A stretch of DNA of 50,624 nucleotides from Aestuariivivens sediminicola (GTDB lineage Bacteria > Bacteroidota > Bacteroidia > Flavobacteriales > Flavobacteriaceae). Made by a program: the position numbers and the translations under genes. Below, piece after piece: positions 34,912 through 45,731 of this stretch (position 1 is the first letter of the stretch; each line of letters opens with the position of its first letter). The stretch spans positions 1 through 50,624 of the forward strand of contig NZ_JAKMCM010000009.1 of NCBI RefSeq assembly GCF_022662015.1, written 5' to 3'. The notes under the pieces are model-generated. The model saw only the letters and a list, made by a program, of their open reading frames with translations. It ran no database searches and was not told where the DNA came from.

Positions 34912-36948
34912 CTAAGGTACTTTTTCCAATAAGGCCTTGAATCTTGGTTCATCTCTCAGTGAGGCAAATTTAATATCCTGGCCCAAACCCCAAAAGAAGA
35001 GCCCTTGCCCTCCAACTTCATAATCCTTTTCTAACCATTTCAAGGTATTCTCGACATCGCCCAAACCCATATAAATAGTAGCTATCATATAAGGTGGCAC
35101 ATAGACCAATTCATTTTTATTTAATTGGTATTCCAATATTTTTTTTGCCTTCTCACGCTCTCCCACCATGCCATAGCAATATCCTAACATCCAGTTGGTA
35201 TGAGAGGCTACACTTCTTGATGTATATAATTTTATAGCTTCATCATATTTTCCAAGACCAGACAAATTTGAAGCTTTCATCCATAATAACATATTATCAT
35301 CTGGGAACCGTTTTAAACCATCATCTATCAAATCTATAGCCTTTTGAAATTCTCTCATATAGTAGTAGGCCTGTCCCATATCGCCAATGTATTTAGTGGA
35401 TAAAGGATCTAATTTTAATACCTTATTGAAATTCGCTTCCATTAACTCCAAATTACCTTCAAATGTATAGATCCATGCTAATTTATTGTAAGCACCAACA
35501 TAACTCGGGTTAATTTCAATAGCCTTTTTAAGGTAAAGAATGGCGGTTTCCTTTTCGTATTTGTAATAGCTAATAGCACCCAGTGCTCCAAATGTTCCTC
35601 CATCGTTAGAATTAATGGCTAAGGCTTTCAATGCAGGTGTTGAAGCCTGTTCCAGCATTTTTTTGGGGGACTCCCTTCCCCAAAAAATATATTCAAGATA
35701 CGTTTCGGCGACACCTACATAAGCGCGACAAAACTGAGGATCCAAATCTATTGCCCTTTGAAATAAGGCCTCGGCCTTTTTTAACTCCTCAACCTTTCCC
35801 CCACCTCTATGCAGGAACATTTGGGCTTCCTTAAACGCCGTGTACGCCTCTGGATTATTAGTTGGCTCGTTACTTAATCGTGACTCTTCAGTGTCACTCA
35901 ATGTTATTTTCAGGGCATTTGCAATAGCCTTCGAGACATTGCTTTGTATTTTAAATATTTGAACCAAAGTATTATCATAAGTATCAGCCCATAAATTTTT
36001 ATTACTGGCCGCATCAACCAAATTGGCATTTATGCGGACCTGATTCTTGTCCAGGCGAACACTTCCCTCCAAAATATAATTCACTCCTAACTCTTCTGCA
36101 ATGTCTTTTATGGGTTTATCGGTTCCTTTATAATGCATGGCAGAGGCCCTGGAAATGACTTGAATATGCTGAATTTTTGAAAGATGGGTAATGATATCTT
36201 CAGTTATACCATCGGTAAAAATATTGGATTCACTACTGTTATTCATATCAGCAAAAGGAAGTACGGCCAATGTTGGTTCCTTCAATTCAAAATCCTCACT
36301 TGGTCTTTTCATGATGAAATACATAAGAACGAGGATAATCAATGATAGAAAGATGAGCGAGTAAATGCTCTTCTTACGATAACTTTTATAAACTTCGGAA
36401 TCCTTGGGTTTTGTTTTCCCCTTTAAAGAATTTTTTTCAGGTATTACAAGGCTTTCGTTACTTACGGCAAAAATTGGAATCACCTTGTTCACATTTTTAA
36501 ATTCAACTGAATCGATAAAACGTGTCGTTATATCCCTCTGATTTCTAATTTGGTCATTCACCTTATCCGAAATCAAGATACTCCCTGCAACTGCCAAAGA
36601 CTCTATTCGGGAAGCAATATTAACGGCATCTCCAATGATATCTGAATCTGTTCTTATAATATCACCGACATGCACACCAATTCTAATAGGAACAGCGGGT
36701 TCTTCGTTGAAAGCCCTTTGCATTTCAATACCACATTTTATGGCTTCGACAGAACTTCTAAAAATACTTAAAGTACCATCACCAAAATATTGTATAAGTT
36801 CCCCATTATACTTACTTGTAACCGTATCAAAAATTTCTCGATGCTTGGCTCTAATAAGCATAGCTTGCTTTTCGTCGTCCTGCATTAAAGAGGTATACCC
36901 TTCAATATCCGTAAACATAATCGCAACAAGTTGTCTATGCTGTGCCAT
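34912..36948 (-). CDS. Class III nucleotide cyclase with TolB-like domain and TPRs
   Basis: A 678-residue protein from the ATG at 36948 (MAQHRQLVAIMFTDIEGYT). An N-terminal class III cyclase domain (1-165) has metal ligands Asp14 and Asp57 (GDG), and Asn110 and Arg114 for transition-state contacts. The position that is Lys in adenylate cyclases is Gln53, so base specificity is uncertain. One membrane helix (about 205-222) follows, then a TolB/FlgO-like domain (TLAVLPFADMNN through DIAEELGVNYILEGSVR) and C-terminal TPRs (about 360-665). It is divergent from a sigma54 activator that has a cyclic-nucleotide-binding domain, the likely receiver of its product. The same architecture is frequent in Bacteroidota and proteobacteria. 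Confidence 0.9.
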   Translation of the reverse strand: MAQHRQLVAIMFTDIEGYTSLMQDDEKQAMLIRAKHREIFDTVTSKYNGELIQYFGDGTLSIFRSSVEAIKCGIEMQRAFNEEPAVPIRIGVHVGDIIRTDSDIIGDAVNIASRIESLAVAGSILISDKVNDQIRNQRDITTRFIDSVEFKNVNKVIPIFAVSNESLVIPEKNSLKGKTKPKDSEVYKSYRKKSIYSLIFLSLIILVLMYFIMKRPSEDFELKEPTLAVLPFADMNNSSESNIFTDGITEDIITHLSKIQHIQVISRASAMHYKGTDKPIKDIAEELGVNYILEGSVRLDKNQVRINANLVDAASNKNLWADTYDNTLVQIFKIQSNVSKAIANALKITLSDTEESRLSNEPTNNPEAYTAFKEAQMFLHRGGGKVEELKKAEALFQRAIDLDPQFCRAYVGVAETYLEYIFWGRESPKKMLEQASTPALKALAINSNDGGTFGALGAISYYKYEKETAILYLKKAIEINPSYVGAYNKLAWIYTFEGNLELMEANFNKVLKLDPLSTKYIGDMGQAYYYMREFQKAIDLIDDGLKRFPDDNMLLWMKASNLSGLGKYDEAIKLYTSRSVASHTNWMLGYCYGMVGEREKAKKILEYQLNKNELVYVPPYMIATIYMGLGDVENTLKWLEKDYEVGGQGLFFWGLGQDIKFASLRDEPRFKALLEKVP

Positions 36949-37069
36949 AATTATCTCAATGATTCTCAACTAATTTAAATAAATATCTTCAAAAAATGCT
37001 TCTTTTAAAATACCAATATTAAATACCTCTGTAATAATTTTTATCTTTAGCCTTACAATACACAGGATA

Positions 37070-38914
37070 ATGTCCAATATGGTATCGATAGAACGCGCAG
37101 AATTTTTATCTAAAATCCCCTTTTTTTCAGAAGTATCAAAAGCCTCTTTAGTAAAACTAAGCGATCACATTTCTGAAGAGACCTATGTGAAAAATGAAAC
37201 CGTTTTTAAAAAGGGGGATGAGGGACATGCCATGTATGTTATTGCAAACGGAGCTGTTAAAGTTCATGACAAGGAACATATTTATCATACTTTCGAATCC
37301 GGTCATTGTTTTGGTGAATATGCCTTAATAGATAATGACACACGCTCGGCATCCATAACAGCTTTAGAACATACAAGAGTACTGAAAATTGAGCGTGCTC
37401 ATTTTATGGAATTAATGAAATCCGACAGTGGTTTTGCACAGGGTATTTTAGCAGTAATGATTAAGCGTCATCGCGAACTGGATGCCATTCAGGAACGATT
37501 GGCTTCTTCTAAACAAGCTGTTGAAATGGCAAATAGTCAATTAAATGGTCTTATAAATGGTGCTATGGATGCCATTATCATGTTTGATAGCCAGTATAAA
37601 ATAGTCCTGACCAATGCATCTGCCAACAAACTCCTGGAAAATGAGGACACTAAGCATAGAAACCTACTCTTTTTTTTGGCTGAAGAAAGTGCGCGTATGT
37701 TGCAGGATATTGTGAGCTCGGAAACTTCGAAAGGATCAACCAACACCTATCTTCCCAATATTATTAAAGTCATTGGGTCAAATGAGACAGAAACCATTAA
37801 TGAAGGCACCATCAGTACCTATGGCAATGATGATCATACCTATTATACACTCATTTTAAGAAATATTGAGGATCGGATTAATGCGGAGGAAACCATTACA
37901 TTACTTACTAAAAAGACAGAATACTTAGAGGAAGAAATTCAAGAATTAACAAGTAGTTACGGTATTATTGCCGAGGATCAAAGTATGAAATCTGTTTTAA
38001 ACCTGATCCATCAGGTTGCAAAAACAGATGCTACTGTATTGATTCAAGGTGAAACCGGAACCGGAAAGGAACTGGTTGCCAGAGCGATTCATAAGGAGAG
38101 TAAACGAAATGATAAACCACTGATTCGTATAAACTGTGGTGCCATACCCGCTAACCTTATTGAAAGTGAACTATTTGGACATGAGAAAGGTGCTTTCACC
38201 GGAGCCACCGCAAGTAGAAAAGGACGCTTTTTACTGGCTGACAAAGGCACCATATTTCTCGATGAAATTGGAGAATTGCCCCTAGATCTTCAGCCAAAAT
38301 TATTGAGAATTATACAAGAGGGTGAATTCGACCCTGTAGGAAGTTCGGAAACTCTGAAAGTTGACGTTCGCATTATTGCAGCCACCCATAGAAATCTTTT
38401 GGAGTTTTCTAAAGCCGGGAAGTTTAGAGAAGATTTGTATTACCGTCTGAATGTGTTTCCTATTGAAGTCCCTCCTTTAAGACATAGAGGAAATGACATT
38501 CATTACATTGCAGAAGAAATGATAAATCAGTTTTCAAAAAAACTGAATAAACCACAGATTACCCTGAGTGATAACGATAAAACAATTTTAAAATCCTATC
38601 ATTGGCCCGGTAATGTACGTGAGCTTCAGAATTTAATTGAACGCGCAGTGATCGTTTCTCAAAATGGAATAATTAACTGGCAGTCCATTATACCGAATGA
38701 GCGCTCTGAAACAAAGCTGTCCAGTGAAACTGCGACGGACCAAATTCTAAGCGCAAAGCAATTAATTGCACTGGAGAAAGAAAACATTTTAAAGGCCCTA
38801 AAACAAACGCGATGGAAAATTTCGGGAAAAAACGGTGCAGCCGAACTTTTACAAATCCCTCCTACAACATTGGCATCAAAAATAAAGGCATTACAGATTG
38901 AAAGGCCTGTATAA
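37070..38914 (+). CDS. Sigma54 activator with cyclic-nucleotide-binding domain
   Basis: A 614-residue NtrC-class enhancer-binding protein. In order: a cNMP-binding domain (about 14-125) with the phosphate-binding cassette [15 protein letters not shown] containing Glu83 and Arg92, both needed for cAMP or cGMP; a PAS-like segment (about 158-270); a coiled linker; a sigma54 AAA+ domain with Walker A GETGTGKE (327-334) and the GAFTGA loop (374-379); and a Fis-type helix-turn-helix at the end ([20 protein letters not shown]). There is no receiver domain, so cyclic nucleotide is the probable signal. It is divergent from a class III cyclase (101 bp from its annotated frame). Downstream lie paired palindromes and a -24/-12 promoter. 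Confidence 0.93.
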
Positions 38915-38954: not shown

Positions 38955-38990
38955 TCACGATATTTCGTGAATTACAAACGAAACTTCGTT
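38955..38990. promoter_or_regulatory. Paired palindromes, putative enhancer sites for the sigma54 activator
   Basis: TCACGA-N4-TCGTGA (38955-38970) and AACGAA-N2-TTCGTT (38977-38990) share ACGA/TCGT half-sites. Their centres are 21 bp apart, two helical turns, and they lie about 80-110 bp upstream of the -24/-12 promoter. A further ACGAA half-site occurs at 38945. This is the layout expected for enhancer binding by the neighbouring Fis-type HTH. Confidence 0.6.
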
Positions 38991-39066
38991 AAATCATGAT
39001 TTCTCGGAGGTAAACTTTATTCTTCTTTAGGATCTAAGCATCTGGTTTTTAATTATTTAAAATTAA

Positions 39067-39082
39067 TGGCACGGCACATGCT
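39067..39082 (+). promoter_or_regulatory. Sigma54 (-24/-12) promoter of the osmC-like gene
   Basis: TGGCACGGCACATGCT matches TGGCACG-N4-TTGC(A/T) at every consensus position but one (A for the first T of TTGC), with GG and GC at correct spacing. The start site would be about 39093, giving a leader of about 41 nt. It stands directly downstream of a sigma54 activator gene. Confidence 0.72.
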
Positions 39083-39133
39083 AATATAATGTCAAACATT
39101 TAAAAATCATTTAACAGTTAAAAATTTAAACAC

Positions 39134-39688
39134 ATGATTCCAACAGCAAACGTAAAAAATGGAGTAAACGTAGATCAATTAGTTGATACTATTGGTGCCG
39201 TACAACAGGATCCAGAATTGGCCAAGTTTGAGTTTAGGGCAAAAAACAATTGGATAGACGGCGGTCACTGCGTATCCAGCATTAAAAGTTTTTATGGTGT
39301 GGGCGCAGAAGACAGTTCAAGAGAGGAGCCTTTCACTATGGAATGCAGTCATCCCCAGGTCCTGTTGGGAAATGATGAAGCAGCCACTCCTCCGGAAGTT
39401 GTGTTACATTCCCTGGCATCCTGTCTAACCGGTGCAATGGTATATCACGCAGCCGCGAATGGTATCACTATCGAAGGAGCAGAGTCCTCCATTAGTGGAG
39501 GGATGGACTTACAAGGGTTTTTAGGACTAAAACCAGAAATACGTAAAGGTTTTAACGGAATTAAATTTACCTTAAAAGTAAAGTCTGATGCCACAACAGA
39601 GCAACTTGATTATTTGGCCAGGTTTTCACCTGTATTCGATATGATCAGAAATCCCACTCCCGTTTCAATTGAAATTGAAAAGGTTTAG
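39134..39688 (+). CDS. OsmC family protein with a single family cysteine
   Basis: A 184-residue OsmC/Ohr-like protein, a family that reduces organic hydroperoxides through two cysteines. SLASCLTGAMVYHAAANGI carries the first family cysteine (Cys97), but the second position, normally Cys in a C-P-V-type motif, reads Ser165 (FSPVFDM). Two other cysteines (46 and 71) lie outside the family positions. Classical two-cysteine peroxidase chemistry is therefore doubtful; redox sensing or thiol transfer is possible. The gene has a near-consensus sigma54 promoter and upstream palindromes, and appears to be the target of the cNMP-binding activator next door. Confidence 0.9.
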   Translation: MIPTANVKNGVNVDQLVDTIGAVQQDPELAKFEFRAKNNWIDGGHCVSSIKSFYGVGAEDSSREEPFTMECSHPQVLLGNDEAATPPEVVLHSLASCLTGAMVYHAAANGITIEGAESSISGGMDLQGFLGLKPEIRKGFNGIKFTLKVKSDATTEQLDYLARFSPVFDMIRNPTPVSIEIEKV

Positions 39689-39875
39689 ATAAGGTTTGAT
39701 ACACGGCAACTTACTTTTAAGAGCTTATTTTTATTGATCATTAAAATCTGTATATCAGGTATCAAATAGACTGAAATCGTGGGAAGCGAAAGAATTCGAA
39801 TTACTCAAGAGAGGTAAAAGTAACATTGATACTTTAAAAATCATTTAGACAACATTGTATAGCCAGTCCATTTTT

Positions 39876-39906
39876 TTTGTAATTTAATGTTATACAAGTA
39901 TCTTTA
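39876..39906 (+). promoter_or_regulatory. Promoter of the cytochrome-DsrE operon
   Basis: TTTG at 39876-39879 and TATCTTTA at 39899-39906 are 19 bp apart, one mismatch from the flavobacterial consensus. Transcription would begin near 39913, leaving a leader of over 100 nt. Otherwise the 360-bp gap 39689-40050 shows no gene. Confidence 0.5.
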
Positions 39907-40050
39907 AGCATAGATTTTACCTGAATATTGAAATTCTAGCCTTCGGAATTGTAATCATACCCCAGATTTATAACAAACTAAACAAGCTGTTGTTTCCTCA
40001 AATCATTAAAGGATTCAATGTTATGCATGTATTTCATAGCGTATTATCAG

Positions 40051-41082
40051 ATGGAACTATTTCATTCTTATAAAAAAATAATAAAACCGATACTCATCTA
40101 TTTTGGAGCCTTAATGGTTCTGGCCATTGGTGTTGCCCTGTATTGCTACGGGGCCATACCGAGGGACCTGTTCAAAAGCAAATATGCCCCTTCCAAAATA
40201 TATTACATGAATTATGATATCGCTGTTCTGAACGACACAAAAGATAATGATCTGTTAAAATACGGATATGAACTTTTTTCGAATACACCGCAGTATATTG
40301 GTCCGGACAATGGCAATGAAAACATGGTCTATCAAGGCAATCGCCTGGCCTGTAAAAATTGTCATTTAGGTTTGGGTACTAAACCTTATTCGGCTCCTCT
40401 AATTGGAATTATTCAACGTTTTCCGCAATATCGGGGCAGGGAAAACAAAATAGGTACTATTGAAGAGCGTGTAAACGGTTGTATGGAGCGGAGTATGAAT
40501 GGCAAGATGCTACCCGAAGACAGTAAAGAAATGAGAGGTATCATTGCCTATCTCGAATGGCTTAGTCGCTATGCGCCGGATGACGGTAAAATAAAGGGAA
40601 CCGGTTTCTTGAAAATTAAAATTCCTGAAAGAGCGGTAGATTTAAATCATGGAAGATCAGTTTTTGAAAAACATTGTATAGTTTGTCACGGAAAAGATGG
40701 ACAAGGATTAATGCGTGAAGATGGATCTGCTTATGAATATCCCCCGCTATGGGGCGATAACTCATACAACAACGGTGCGGGGATGACAAGAGTTATAACT
40801 GCAGCTCAATTTATAAAAGGTAATATGCCTTTTGGAACAACTTATGATGCCCCTATATTAACAGATGAAGAGGCGTATGATGTGGCTGGATTTATTAATT
40901 CACAAAACCGTCCAAAAAAGGCCAATCCGGAAAAAGATTTCCCTGACTTAAAGAAGAAACCGGTTTCCACACCTTATCCTCCATTTGCGGATAACTTCCC
41001 TATTGAACAACACAAAATGGGGCCATTTCAACCCATTATGAATTATTATAAACAAAAATTTAAAATCACTAAAACCAAGTAA
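40051..41082 (+). CDS. TsdA-like dihaem cytochrome c
   Basis: A membrane-anchored dihaem cytochrome c, 343 residues from the ATG at 40051. One N-terminal helix (about 12-32) anchors it facing the periplasm. Haem sites are CKNCH at 101-105 and CIVCH at 209-213. The region FPQYRGRENKIGTIEERVNGCMERSMNG closely resembles thiosulfate dehydrogenase TsdA, and Cys144 corresponds to the unusual cysteine haem ligand of that enzyme; Met259 (KGNMPFG) is a candidate ligand of haem 2. TsdA links thiosulfate and tetrathionate. Two exported DsrE-like genes follow, supporting sulfur chemistry. An ATG at 40018 is an alternative start. Confidence 0.87.
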   Translation: MELFHSYKKIIKPILIYFGALMVLAIGVALYCYGAIPRDLFKSKYAPSKIYYMNYDIAVLNDTKDNDLLKYGYELFSNTPQYIGPDNGNENMVYQGNRLACKNCHLGLGTKPYSAPLIGIIQRFPQYRGRENKIGTIEERVNGCMERSMNGKMLPEDSKEMRGIIAYLEWLSRYAPDDGKIKGTGFLKIKIPERAVDLNHGRSVFEKHCIVCHGKDGQGLMREDGSAYEYPPLWGDNSYNNGAGMTRVITAAQFIKGNMPFGTTYDAPILTDEEAYDVAGFINSQNRPKKANPEKDFPDLKKKPVSTPYPPFADNFPIEQHKMGPFQPIMNYYKQKFKITKTK

Positions 41083-41084
41083 TT

Positions 41085-41762
41085 ATGAAAACAATGAAGA
41101 ACAATTCAAGACGACAATTTTTAGGAGCTCTAGCACTTGGAGCAACTGCCAGCACCATTTCATTGCTGTCCAATCCGATGTATGCCGAGACCACCATCTT
41201 TAACGACTCCAAAATGAAGGAAGCGGAAGATTGGTTTGATAAAATTAAGGGCTCCCAAAGGGTTGTTTTTGACGGCTCTACACCACATATGGGACTTCCA
41301 ATTCTTTGGAACTGGGCATTTTACCTTTCTAACAATGGGACAGATGTACCCGATAGCGATATGACCGCGATGTCGGTATTGCGTCATACAGGCTTATGTA
41401 TCGCGTTTAAAGATGAGTTATGGGCAAAGTATAAGCTGGGGGAAGTTTTTGGTGTAAAAGATTACACAGGTGAATTTGCTGTACGGAATCCGTATTACGA
41501 ACCAAAAGATGGCGATTACCCTATTAACGGTCCGGGAGGATTAAAAAGCCAGGCCGAAAGGGGTGCTATGTTCTGTGCCTGCGATTTGGCTACCAAAGTA
41601 TATAGTAACAAAGTTGCTGAAAGCATGGGTCTAAATCCTGAGGAAGTATATGAAGAATGGGTGAATGGCGTCCTAGATGAAGTTAAACTGGTTCCGTCGG
41701 GTGTTTGGGCACTTGCCAGAGCTCAAGCAAAAGGATGTGGCTATATATTTGCCGGTGAATAA
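41085..41762 (+). CDS. Tat-exported DsrE-like protein
   Basis: A 225-residue protein with a twin-arginine signal (NNSRRQFLGALALGATAS). The mature part contains FDGSTPHMGLPILWNWAFYLSNNG and RHTGLCIAFKDELWAKY. The C-terminal GAMFCACDLATKVYSNKVAE to LVPSGVWALARAQAKGCGYIFAGE resembles the end of DsrE-fold proteins. Cysteines in LCIAF, FCAC and GCGY are candidates for carrying sulfur, although Tat export would also suit a cofactor-bearing protein. It starts 2 bp after the cytochrome stop and ends 16 bp before the second DsrE-like gene, so all three form one operon. Confidence 0.75.
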   Translation: MKTMKNNSRRQFLGALALGATASTISLLSNPMYAETTIFNDSKMKEAEDWFDKIKGSQRVVFDGSTPHMGLPILWNWAFYLSNNGTDVPDSDMTAMSVLRHTGLCIAFKDELWAKYKLGEVFGVKDYTGEFAVRNPYYEPKDGDYPINGPGGLKSQAERGAMFCACDLATKVYSNKVAESMGLNPEEVYEEWVNGVLDEVKLVPSGVWALARAQAKGCGYIFAGE

Positions 41763-41778
41763 TATAATTCTCAAAACG

Positions 41779-42192
41779 ATGAAATTCATATCAAACATAG
41801 TGTGGGCTTTACTATTTTCTACAATTTGCCTAGCCCAGGAAAAGCCGGTTAAAATCGTTTTCGATGTGACCAGCTCAAATACTAAAGTTCATGAATCGAC
41901 CATAAGGCACGTAAAAGCAATGTCCAATGCCTATCCGGATTCGAAATTCGAGGTGGTCATGTACAGTGGCGCCATGGATATGGTTTTAAAAGACAAATCG
42001 GTTGTCGCGGAGGACTTAGAGATGCTTGCCAATAAAGACAATATCGATTTTGTAATATGCCAGGGCACCATGAAACGACATGATGTCGATTCTGACGACT
42101 TAATATCGGGGGTTAGAAGTGTCCCTGATGGTATTCTTGAAATTATTGAAAAACAAAAAGAAGGCTGGGGTTATATAAAAGAAAGCCAGTAA
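41779..42192 (+). CDS. Exported DsrE family protein
   Basis: A 137-residue protein with a Sec signal peptide (MKFISNIVWALLFSTICLAQ) and a DsrE/DsrF-like alpha/beta domain: KPVKIVFDVTSSNTKVHESTIRHVKAM, FEVVMYSGAMDMVLKDK, IDFVICQGTMKRHDV, ISGVRSVPDGILEIIEKQKEGWGYIKES. A cysteine in FVICQGT sits where DsrE proteins carry their sulfur-transfer cysteine. The true start is the ATG at 41779. Third gene of the TsdA-like operon; periplasmic. Confidence 0.82.
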   Translation: MKFISNIVWALLFSTICLAQEKPVKIVFDVTSSNTKVHESTIRHVKAMSNAYPDSKFEVVMYSGAMDMVLKDKSVVAEDLEMLANKDNIDFVICQGTMKRHDVDSDDLISGVRSVPDGILEIIEKQKEGWGYIKESQ

Positions 42193-42356: not shown

Positions 42357-45300
42357 TTATTTTTTATCCAAGGTATTAACCATATCCCAATCCACTGGTG
42401 TTCCTGAAATAGTATATTCAGCAGATTTTGTGATAAAGTATTTAGCAACCAGGTCTTTAGGATTTTTACTGAGGACTTTATCGAATGCAGCTGAAGCTTT
42501 CGGAAAAGCCTTATTAAAAAAATGATCTAATCCTTTTTGAAAATCCTTAATGGTCTTTTTTTTCAAATCGATACTTTCATCATCGTCACCATCAAAGCAT
42601 TCGTAAACTCCTAGTGCTTCATGCTTTCCTTTTACCTTGACCTTACCTAAATAACGAAAATTAAAATCATCCTTATTATCAATCGTTGACATGCTGCTCT
42701 CGCTGATAACTATATTGGCGCCATAAAATTTCGAGGTCCCCTCAACACGTGAGGCTGTATTCACCGTATCCGCTATAATAGCAGTATCATTTCTATAACT
42801 ATCGCCTATAATACCCATAACCAAGGATCCCGTATGCATTCCCATACCCACCGAAATTGGCTCATAACCCTCTTTTTCCCTTCTTATATTGTAATCTATA
42901 ATTGTTTTCTGCATGGCAATTGCAGCCTGTAATGCATGACTTGCCTGCTCCGGAAAAAGGGCCATAATGCCATCTCCTAAATATTGATTTACAAAACCCT
43001 TATGCTGTTGGATCAAAGGTCCCATACGCCCAACATAGGCATTAACAAACTTAAAATTTTGCGTCGGTGTCATGGATTCCGACAATGTCGTGTAATCCCT
43101 GACATCCGTGAATAGGACAGTAACCTCTTTTTGAATATGATCGCCAAGAATAACATCGGTAATTGCTTCCCGTCCAACGGATTTTAAGAATTCAGATGGC
43201 ACAAACCTGCTTGTCGCCCTGTGGATACCATATAAATTTAAATGGGTTTTTATTCTGCTCAACAATTCATTTTTAGAAAATGGCTTTGTCAAATAATCAT
43301 TTGCTCCAACATTAAACCCTGTAACCAAATCACTTACCCTGTTTTTAGCCGTAAGTAAAACTATGGGAAGTTCACTACTAGAATACGTTTTTCGAATGGT
43401 CTCACACACTTCGTAACCCGACATATGCGGCATCATGATATCCAAAAGAATTAAATCGAAATCATGACCATTTTGAATACGTTCTAATGCCTCTTTTCCA
43501 CTTCCAACTTCAACTACATTATAACCGGCCACTGTTAAATGGTTTTCAAGTACCCTCCGATTAATCGGTTCGTCATCAACAATTAAAATCGTTAATTCGG
43601 AGGTTTTAACATCCAAGGCTAAAATATCTTCATTTTTACTTTCGACTGCATCCGTTCTAACACCTTGTACTACATCCTCCTCTTTTTGTTCCAAAGAATC
43701 ACGTGACTCCTGACTCAAAGGTAGTGTGAAACTAAATTCTGAACCCTGTCCCAAAGTAGATTCCACGTTAATTTCACCACCGTGAAGCTCCACCAATTGC
43801 TTCGTCACGGTTAATCCCAGGCCTGTACCTCCATAGGTTCTGGAAATGGATCCATCCCCTTGCTCAAAAGATTTAAAAATGGAATGAAACTGTTCTTTTG
43901 GAATTCCAATACCAGTATCAGAAACAGTAATTCTTAAATAGGCACCTTTCTTTACCGCATTAATCTCGACCGTACCCTTTTCCGTAAATTTAATGGCGTT
44001 GCCGACTAAATTATACAGGATCTGCTGGAGCCTATTCTCATCAGCAAGCACCAATGGAATCGTTTTACTAATAGCATTGATTAATTTAAGATTCTTATCT
44101 TTTGCCAGACCGCTCGAAACCTTCAGAACCAGCTCAGCAATAGGGAAAATATCTATGGACTGAATATTAAGAGATAAATCTTCATTCTTTAACTTAGAAA
44201 AGTCAAGAATATCGTTAACCAAATTAGAAAGGCGTTTTCCACTATTCGTGATCATATCCAGATTCTCTATGGCCTTTGGAGACATTTTACCCGCTACACC
44301 ATCCATTAATGATTCAGATAGACCAATAATACCATTTAATGGTGTTTTTAATTCGTGAGAGGTGTTTGCTAAAAACTGATCCTTAAGACGATCAACTTGT
44401 TTTAATCGGCCGATGATTTCGCGTTCCTGCCTTAATTTAATACTCTTCTGTCTAGACCGCCAATACAAACCTCCAACGAGTAATAATCCTATCGTCCCGA
44501 ATATCAAAAGGTTAACCTTATTACGTTGTTGACTAATATCTTTTGCGTAGCGTAATTCCTGTTCCGCCTTTTCTTTGTTAAACGCAATACTATCGGCAAG
44601 CTGTTGTTTCTCGAACTGATACTGCATTTCCTGACGTGTAATTTCTTGGGTTTTATCCTTATTGAACAGGGAGTCTTTTGCCTGTACGGATTGTTTAAAG
44701 TACTTTAAAGATTTGTTATAGTTCCCTAATTTTTCCCATACGATACTTAAACACTCACAAGCTTCTTTTTGAGCTATAAGTACACCCGATTCTTGAGCTA
44801 GTGCTAAACTCTTCTCACAGTCTTTTTTTGCTAGTTCATATTTGCCGAGCATTAAATAAGTCCCCCCTCCTCTATATAAATACGCTGAGATCAGTCCTTC
44901 CTTATCCCCAATCTCATTCTTAATGATTATGCCTTTATTCAAATAGTCCAGTGCCTTATCGTACATGCCTTGCTTATTGTATATTTCACCAATATTGTTA
45001 TAGGCACGGGTAATTCCTCTTTTATCACCTACCTCTTCAGCCAATGCTGCCGACTTCAATAAATTTTCGAGGGCCGCATCAAACTCATTCATATCGGAAT
45101 GAACAAGAGCAACATTGTTGTATGCATGCACCAAAGTGCGCTTATTGCCAATCTCCTGCTTCAATTTTAAGCTGTAACTGAGGTACTCCAATGCTTTAGT
45201 CTGGTTTTTCTGTCTTATATAGACATTACCGAGATTGTTAGTAAGTCTTGCTAAATTTTCCTTGTCATTTATCTCCTCTGAAATCTTTAATCCTTGAAGC

Positions 45301-45731
45301 AAATAATCCAGGGCCTTCGTAAAATTGCCCAATTCATAATAAACCGTTCCAATGTTGTTAAAAGTGGTTGCCAATGCTTTGGTATCCGATAACTGTGCAT
45401 GTAATTCATGGCTTTTTAGAAAATAATCTAAAGCTTCATTAAATTGTCCCTGAACCGCATATGTATTTCCAATAAATCGGAAAACCGTTGCTTTCCATTT
45501 TCTATTGTTCTTTTCTTCCGAAAACTTGAGCACACGATGACCAAATACGCGCGCGGAGTCGAGGTTTTGCCTAAACAAGAGCATAAAGGCATCTAATCCG
45601 GCTTCAAATCTCAAAGAATCTATTTTCTTCTGGTCCTCAAATGCAATTTTAAGGCTGTCTAAAGTTGACGATTGTCCGAACGAAACACTTATTAAACCAA
45701 TACATAGAAGTAATGAAAGTTTGTATTTCAT
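42357..45731 (-). CDS. TPR-histidine kinase-receiver-class III cyclase fusion
   Basis: An 1124-residue hybrid signalling protein: signal peptide (1-20), about seven TPRs (60-355) outside the cytoplasm, coiled coil, membrane helix (404-426), HisKA with phospho-acceptor His459 (SHELKTPLNG), HATPase (DENRLQQILYNLVGNAIKF through GGTGLGLTVTKQL), receiver with Asp764 (LLDIMMPHMSGYE), and a class III cyclase (about 865-1015) with metal Asp876 and Asp920 and catalytic Asn991 and Arg995. The adenine-contacting Lys position is Gln917. A short TPR-like helical tail follows. Phosphorelay from kinase to receiver probably gates cyclase output. An inverted repeat TTAAGT-N6-ACTTAA lies about 40 bp upstream of the start. 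Confidence 0.94.
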   Translation of the reverse strand: MKYKLSLLLCIGLISVSFGQSSTLDSLKIAFEDQKKIDSLRFEAGLDAFMLLFRQNLDSARVFGHRVLKFSEEKNNRKWKATVFRFIGNTYAVQGQFNEALDYFLKSHELHAQLSDTKALATTFNNIGTVYYELGNFTKALDYLLQGLKISEEINDKENLARLTNNLGNVYIRQKNQTKALEYLSYSLKLKQEIGNKRTLVHAYNNVALVHSDMNEFDAALENLLKSAALAEEVGDKRGITRAYNNIGEIYNKQGMYDKALDYLNKGIIIKNEIGDKEGLISAYLYRGGGTYLMLGKYELAKKDCEKSLALAQESGVLIAQKEACECLSIVWEKLGNYNKSLKYFKQSVQAKDSLFNKDKTQEITRQEMQYQFEKQQLADSIAFNKEKAEQELRYAKDISQQRNKVNLLIFGTIGLLLVGGLYWRSRQKSIKLRQEREIIGRLKQVDRLKDQFLANTSHELKTPLNGIIGLSESLMDGVAGKMSPKAIENLDMITNSGKRLSNLVNDILDFSKLKNEDLSLNIQSIDIFPIAELVLKVSSGLAKDKNLKLINAISKTIPLVLADENRLQQILYNLVGNAIKFTEKGTVEINAVKKGAYLRITVSDTGIGIPKEQFHSIFKSFEQGDGSISRTYGGTGLGLTVTKQLVELHGGEINVESTLGQGSEFSFTLPLSQESRDSLEQKEEDVVQGVRTDAVESKNEDILALDVKTSELTILIVDDEPINRRVLENHLTVAGYNVVEVGSGKEALERIQNGHDFDLILLDIMMPHMSGYEVCETIRKTYSSSELPIVLLTAKNRVSDLVTGFNVGANDYLTKPFSKNELLSRIKTHLNLYGIHRATSRFVPSEFLKSVGREAITDVILGDHIQKEVTVLFTDVRDYTTLSESMTPTQNFKFVNAYVGRMGPLIQQHKGFVNQYLGDGIMALFPEQASHALQAAIAMQKTIIDYNIRREKEGYEPISVGMGMHTGSLVMGIIGDSYRNDTAIIADTVNTASRVEGTSKFYGANIVISESSMSTIDNKDDFNFRYLGKVKVKGKHEALGVYECFDGDDDESIDLKKKTIKDFQKGLDHFFNKAFPKASAAFDKVLSKNPKDLVAKYFITKSAEYTISGTPVDWDMVNTLDKK

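Follow-up and report, generated by a model that had tools for sequence, protein, structure and literature searches.

Here, we describe a putative sigma54 enhancer circuit in the flavobacterium Aestuariivivens sediminicola, found in a stretch of 50,624 nucleotides analysed as a whole (contig NZ_JAKMCM010000009.1, positions 1 to 50,624; hereafter, the window). An activator gene, three operator dyads, a -24/-12 promoter and a gene for an OsmC-family protein follow one another, and a class III nucleotide cyclase gene diverges from the activator gene. We propose that a cyclase supplies a cyclic nucleotide monophosphate (cNMP) that acts through the sigma54 activator on redox or low-oxygen genes, and we give this reading a probability of roughly 0.7. 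The promoter circuit is well supported; gating by a cyclic nucleotide is the part that we infer. The broader proposal, that in Flavobacteriaceae the product of a class III cyclase encoded beside the activator (cAMP or cGMP) directly gates a sigma54 enhancer-binding protein and in this way, rather than by a sigma70-type CRP, switches a small sigma54 regulon comprising OsmC, pyruvate:ferredoxin oxidoreductase (PFOR), TauE and TlpA-like proteins, we hold at slightly better than even odds. The principal features are as follows.

37070..38914, forward strand: sigma54 activator gene, 614 amino acids, with a cNMP_binding domain, a PAS-like middle segment, an AAA+ domain with GAFTGA and a Fis-type helix-turn-helix (HTH) (Pfam, 21-sequence alignment, N-terminal model, fold matches).
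38957..38968, unstranded: putative operator dyad 1, ACGATATTTCGT (sequence reading, weight matrix).
38978..38989, unstranded: putative operator dyad 2, ACGAAACTTCGT (sequence reading, weight matrix).
38996..39007, unstranded: putative operator dyad 3, degenerate, ATGATTTCTCGG (register of the third dyad in most relatives).
39067..39082, forward strand: -24/-12 sigma54 promoter, TGGCACGGCACATGCT (sequence, conservation in relatives).
39134..39688, forward strand: OsmC-family gene, 184 amino acids, first gene of the predicted transcript (Pfam, NCBIfam, alignment).
34912..36969, reverse strand: class III nucleotide cyclase with a FlgO-like domain and TPRs, divergent from the activator; candidate ligand source (Pfam, PF00211, catalytic residues).
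42357..45731, reverse strand: TPR - histidine kinase - receiver - class III cyclase protein (Pfam, PF00211).

The promoter element differs from TGGCACG-N4-TTGCT, which we take to be the sigma54 consensus, by a single change, an A replacing the first T of TTGCT, and so confirms the near-consensus site reported in a first-pass annotation of this DNA. That annotation also described paired palindromes 21 bp apart; the sequences and centre spacing of dyads 1 and 2 were right, but the third, degenerate dyad at 38996 had been overlooked. Dyad 3 keeps 6 of 8 arm bases and lies 71 bp upstream of the -24 T, the third-dyad position of most relatives, giving dyad spacings of 21 and 18 bp in the window. 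An array of only two dyads is ruled out by the conservation of this third position in relatives.

Accidental palindromes and a promoter-like word in an AT-rich intergenic region would offer a simpler explanation, and the individual words give it some purchase: the dyad word with one mismatch occurs 113 times in the genome, against 164 for a reversed control, and TGGCACN5WTGC occurs 14 times, against 9 for its control. Single words are unremarkable; the weight lies in their combination and in its conservation. A four-block weight matrix, trained on 61 relative loci with the window and three Aestuariivivens loci left out, scored the window site at 54.3 bits; the next-best place in the window reached -39.7, and 40 Markov-1 resamplings of the window gave no more than -18.5. 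The matrix score, a register conserved in the great majority of 77 loci and the near-absence of the array from genomes without the activator rule out chance palindromes, and we give this explanation next to no credence.

Conservation was assessed in a sample of 199 Flavobacteriaceae genomes, in which a full-length activator defined a carrier, and in a set of 80 loci that ranked best among 87 relatives, assigned to a Flavobacteriaceae genus or, more broadly, to the Flavobacteriaceae, Flavobacteriales or Bacteroidia. The sample contains 21 carriers, each from another genus, the window's own genome among them. Alignment of orthologous activator-osmC regions, a check proposed in the first-pass annotation, placed three dyads ACGAWATWTCGT and TGGCAC-N5-WTGC, or near variants, in a single register in 20 intergenic regions (all carriers but G059). 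A model of these 20 activator-adjacent regions, the window's included (R1), scored at least 68.8 bits in all 21 carriers (20 by construction, G059 not) and 20.7 bits at most in 21 non-carriers. The array was found in 77 of the 80 activator loci. Since 17 of these loci probably correspond to training genomes of R1, the independent tests are G059 and the other 63 loci, 60 of which have the array. Two of the three loci without a match (L212, L215) end inside the activator, and the third (L200) has a different downstream region. At positions 10820-10880 of L200, from a metagenome-assembled Bacteroidia genome, there is only a trace of a dyad, and osmC and PFOR are absent, which suggests a rearrangement or an assembly chimera.

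Independently of the model, TGGCA[CT]N7G[CT] lies 40-110 bp before the osmC start in all 75 loci with osmC, and the expectation that promoter and dyads persist in relatives keeping both genes is thus borne out. The -24 CA and -12 G are present in 76/76 scored loci (TGG was required by the search). Dyad spacings, taken as best fits within 20-24 and 16-20 bp, are 22/18 in 67 of 77 loci, with 71 bp to the -24 element in 69. Mean pairwise identity is 0.77-0.85 for the dyads, 0.75 for the -24/-12 element, 0.55-0.61 for the linkers and 0.43-0.58 for the spacer, in 61 of 75 loci picked for dyads in exact register, a choice that raises the dyad values. Of 75 relatives, 47 have in the spacer an exact copy of WATCAANNNNTTR, which we take to be the IHF consensus; shuffling the spacers gave 1.2 on average.

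Autoregulation of the activator by the array was rejected, since the array lies downstream of the activator gene and is oriented to osmC; no such dyad was seen by eye in the window's cyclase-activator intergenic region. In 19 of 21 carriers the activator is followed directly by osmC in the same orientation (within 1.5 kb). In G059 two open reading frames (ORFs) intervene, and G011 has two arrays, one after the activator close to the end of a contig and one before osmC-PFOR on a different contig. In the eight loci where more than 500 bp separate activator and osmC, the array stays close to osmC. Three Aestuariivivens loci (L149-L151) have a 354-aa lipoprotein-like ORF inserted between activator and array, and a 352-aa ORF of similar sequence follows the activator in G059.

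The dyads could in principle be bound by a different regulator, with the neighbouring activator serving other promoters. The window's genome has four strong matches to the sigma54 activator domain, and thus three other genes with full-length domains as potential candidates, together with a single match to the sigma54 DNA-binding domain (PF04552, 176.5 bits, G000:C14:111780-112256). Related sigma54 activators are however nearly universal, with matches at E 1e-60 in 198 of 199 genomes, whereas none of the 178 family genomes lacking this activator has the array at a comparable score: under stricter filters that may have lost weak matches, 175 gave no match at E 1e-4 and three gave weak ones of 24.3-27.8 bits. 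The array also directly follows this activator in most loci, and we consider control by another regulator improbable. The three weak non-carrier matches (G130, G132, G176) were rejected as arrays: they span most of the model, with degenerate dyads at most, and precede other genes. Weak R1 matches in G148 (L137 5276-6179), G132 and G130 (L233, L235) precede small proteins of secreted type that begin alike (MKK...LLFA/LSA...TSATA) and may form a separate sigma54 target class common to non-carriers.

As the first-pass annotation had stated, the gene upstream of the array encodes a sigma54 activator with a cNMP-type domain. Pfam identifies cNMP_binding (residues 37-119; PF00027, 72.3 bits), Sigma54_activat (PF00158, 248.9 bits), AAA_lid and the C-terminal Fis-type HTH_8 (PF02954, 25.1 bits against a cut-off of 22), and finds no GAF domain. 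GETGTGKE (Walker A) and GAFTGA are invariant in 21/21 orthologues, as is the cassette FGEY...D...RSA, with Glu83 and Arg92. The predicted N-terminal fold superposes on cyclic-nucleotide domains, with a block predicted local distance difference test (pLDDT) score of 92-95 over residues 11-120, except for 81 over residues 81-90; the predicted template modelling (pTM) score of the 280-residue piece is 0.50. Its nearest sequences in the PDB are PKG and PKA regulatory domains. The following middle segment, unnamed by Pfam, has a PAS-like strand order in the model. Against the NCBIfam NorR family the protein scores 355.8 bits, below the cut-off of 476 and over residues 276-574 only. Taken together, we interpret the N-terminus as a cyclic-nucleotide-binding domain that is predicted to bind such a ligand.

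The genomic neighbourhood points to a source for that ligand. The window's genome has two cyclase domains (PF00211), one in the divergent cyclase and one in the kinase-cyclase protein, and neither is more than 6 kb from the activator. A cyclase lies within 2 kb of the activator in 11 of 21 carriers and within 12 kb in 18, against 0.10 and 0.45 expected by a naive count over related, non-independent genomes. In the 80-locus set, tblastn placed a TPR cyclase divergent from and adjacent to the activator in 33 loci and some cyclase, of two different architectures, within the flank in 72. The two Asp, the Asn and the Arg, which we take to be the metal and transition-state residues, are invariant in the window's divergent cyclase and 33 other divergent adjacent ones (34/34). 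The divergent TPR cyclase and/or the hybrid kinase-cyclase is thus the likely source of the activator's signal.

Some CRP-family sensors bind haem or another ligand. It is therefore conceivable that the same sigma54 circuit is governed by an N-terminal domain that binds haem or another molecule, or that only dimerises, with the cyclases as syntenic bystanders. The invariant Glu83 and Arg92, the PKG and PKA domains as nearest PDB sequences and the recurrence of two cyclase architectures nearby all argue against this alternative, which we regard as unlikely though still worth keeping in mind.

Under the cyclic-nucleotide reading, the divergent TPR cyclase and/or the nearby hybrid kinase-cyclase would synthesise a cyclic nucleotide, whose occupation of the N-terminal domain would release the AAA+ ring. 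Three activator dimers bound to three dyads would provide six subunits, the number in an AAA+ ring, an arrangement for which NorR is a precedent. The spacer would bend, in relatives at the IHF-type site, allowing the ring to meet sigma54-RNA polymerase at the -24/-12 element 71 bp downstream. Promoter opening would lead to expression of osmC (osmC-PFOR in relatives), the TauE/SafE permease and TlpA-like thioredoxin operon would be driven by the same activator, and the output would be a redox, sulfur or low-oxygen adjustment.

The predicted targets are consistent with such an output. Pfam assigns the gene at 39134-39688 to OsmC, in agreement with the first-pass annotation. OsmC/Ohr peroxidases have two redox cysteines at classical positions; the window protein keeps Cys97, in SLASC, and has Ser (SPVF) at the second position in all 76 sequences, so that the classical pair is absent, and its Cys46 and Cys97 are invariant in 76/76. 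It also matches an OsmC-related (seleno)protein family weakly, below cut-off. A gene resembling the PFOR of G034, which was identified by Pfam, comes after osmC in 20 of 21 carriers; a single ORF intervenes in G148, and in G011 the two genes are on the separate contig. In the relative set, PFOR is present in 74 of 75 osmC-bearing loci. The window is the exception among the carriers, with no PFOR after osmC (39689-40017) and no significant PFOR remnant in the gap before the cytochrome gene. PFOR is missing at the same place in Aestuariivivens insulae (L151) and present in the two other Aestuariivivens loci. Elsewhere in the window's genome (G000:C10:614003-617494) there is a diverged PFOR-like gene, with 45-51% identity and no array before it (L229).

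A genome scan for the palindromes next to -24/-12 sites, also suggested in the first-pass annotation, revealed two further promoters. R1 arrays precede a TauE/SafE permease gene in the window's genome (61.2 bits) and in G169 (50.9), and a TlpA-like thioredoxin gene in the window's genome (48.8), G148 (73.5; a methyltransferase gene comes first there) and G154 (32.0). Both additional promoters in the window's genome were recovered with a matrix from other genera, which scored them at 58.9 and 43.9. At most 150 candidates were scored per carrier genome, and further targets may exist. The earlier claim of a self-contained circuit needs correcting: since the array also precedes the TauE/SafE and TlpA-like genes, its distribution in the sequence defines a small regulon instead of a circuit closed in on one locus. 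PFOR is oxygen-sensitive, and the OsmC, TauE and TlpA-like targets are thiol, sulfur or peroxide related, which suggests a redox, sulfur or low-oxygen response.

Several observations weigh against the proposed circuit. The presumed adenine-binding Lys of the cyclases is Gln in 34/34, which makes their specificity doubtful. In 47 of 80 loci the activator has no divergent, adjacent cyclase, and tblastn found none in the full flanks of L153, L200 and L206. Among 21 genomes that lack the activator, 16 have cyclase domains too, which rules out strict co-occurrence, and the relatedness of the genomes tempers the neighbourhood counts. L200 keeps the activator without the array. Dyad 3 of the window is degenerate, and poor -12 elements (TTGGC, TTGGA) leave the strength of this genome's TauE and TlpA-like promoters uncertain. 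The window spacer differs from the IHF consensus by two mismatches, and bending there may thus depend on another protein or on intrinsic curvature.

The circuit would belong to a known kind, the sigma54 activator system; what would be new is its cyclic-nucleotide input. CRP-family proteins use an HTH of their own to act on sigma70-type promoters. The window activator shares the cyclic-nucleotide-binding fold and cassette with CRP/FNR regulators and with PKA and PKG domains, but unlike CRP/FNR has this domain fused to a sigma54 AAA+ activator. The norR gene lies beside its target, as does the activator gene in the window, and the targets and operator sequences of the window circuit differ from those of NorR. 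NorR itself carries a nitric oxide-sensing GAF domain, in contrast to the cyclic-nucleotide-binding domain found here. Like the window circuit, NorR/norVW of E. coli has three sites upstream of its sigma54 promoter, which are essential and scaffold a higher-order oligomer (PMC2941729). Groups 1-5 of the bacterial enhancer-binding proteins (bEBPs) resemble the activator in their AAA+ domain with GAFTGA, C-terminal HTH and N-terminal regulatory domain (PMC7175178). The switches described for these activators are phosphorylation, the binding of ligands to PAS, GAF, V4R or ACT domains, and partner proteins, and IHF-assisted looping has been described for them as well (PMC7175178). The bEBP table excerpted from that review lists response regulator, PRD, PAS, V4R, ACT, GAF or no regulatory domain, and the cyclic-nucleotide-binding domain is absent from it. 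FisR-type sulfane-sulfur activators are likewise sigma54 activators tied to sulfur or redox genes; the activator of the window has a cyclic-nucleotide-binding domain.

A 2011 survey reported about 136 sigma54 activator architectures then in Pfam, and its architecture section does not name a cyclic-nucleotide domain (PMC3162934); Pfam may well list the cNMP-sigma54 combination without any study of it. Open PubMed Central literature, by titles and abstract starts and with subscription papers outside its scope, yielded no description of this circuit and no cyclase-receptor pathway in Bacteroidota; nothing was found there on flavobacterial PFOR-OsmC either. Cyclic-nucleotide signalling in Bacteroidota thus seems little explored. 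In excerpt, PMC12316311 mentions sigma54 targets in flavobacteria without the word 'OsmC', a term search of PMC4641369 gave no relevant match, PMC13277301 describes a CRP-type protein without an HTH in the flavobacterium Riemerella anatipestifer, and PMC8316039 proved unrelated. If the proposal is true, the cyclic-nucleotide domain adds a second-messenger input to sigma54 activators. Candidate cyclases, receptor, operators, promoter and targets can be named in cultured genera and are directly testable, and the locus provides a sequence model for array promoters.

Downstream of osmC, the window contains three further genes on the forward strand (40018-42192).

40018..41082, forward strand: c-type cytochrome (SoxA/TsdA-like); neighbour, at most a possible operon member (Pfam, synteny).
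41085..41762, forward strand: Tat-signal-like protein (by eye), with a weak TetH match far below cut-off; neighbour (NCBIfam, synteny).
41677..42192, forward strand: DsrE-family protein; neighbour (Pfam, synteny).

The listed DsrE ORF overlaps the preceding gene, and its true start therefore probably lies inside it. The same trio follows PFOR in G034, G006, G162, G169 and G115, and we suspect a role in thiosulfate or other sulfur chemistry.

In a phylum-wide sample, 2 of 395 genomes carry the full-length activator, and both belong to the window's family. A relative that matches from residue 139 on (L139) occurs in one genome from a different family of the class; its N-terminus is unnamed by Pfam, which detects no cyclic-nucleotide domain in it. 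Either a gain of the domain in the Flavobacteriaceae line or its loss in other lines may account for this. The L139 gene lies directly before a truncated globin gene and has degenerate dyads upstream. Finally, paired dyads of another sequence, GTGATATTTCAC, stand before a -24/-12 site next to the gene of a related sigma54 activator (L035 1293-1423), which suggests that paralogous activators have diverged in operator sequence.
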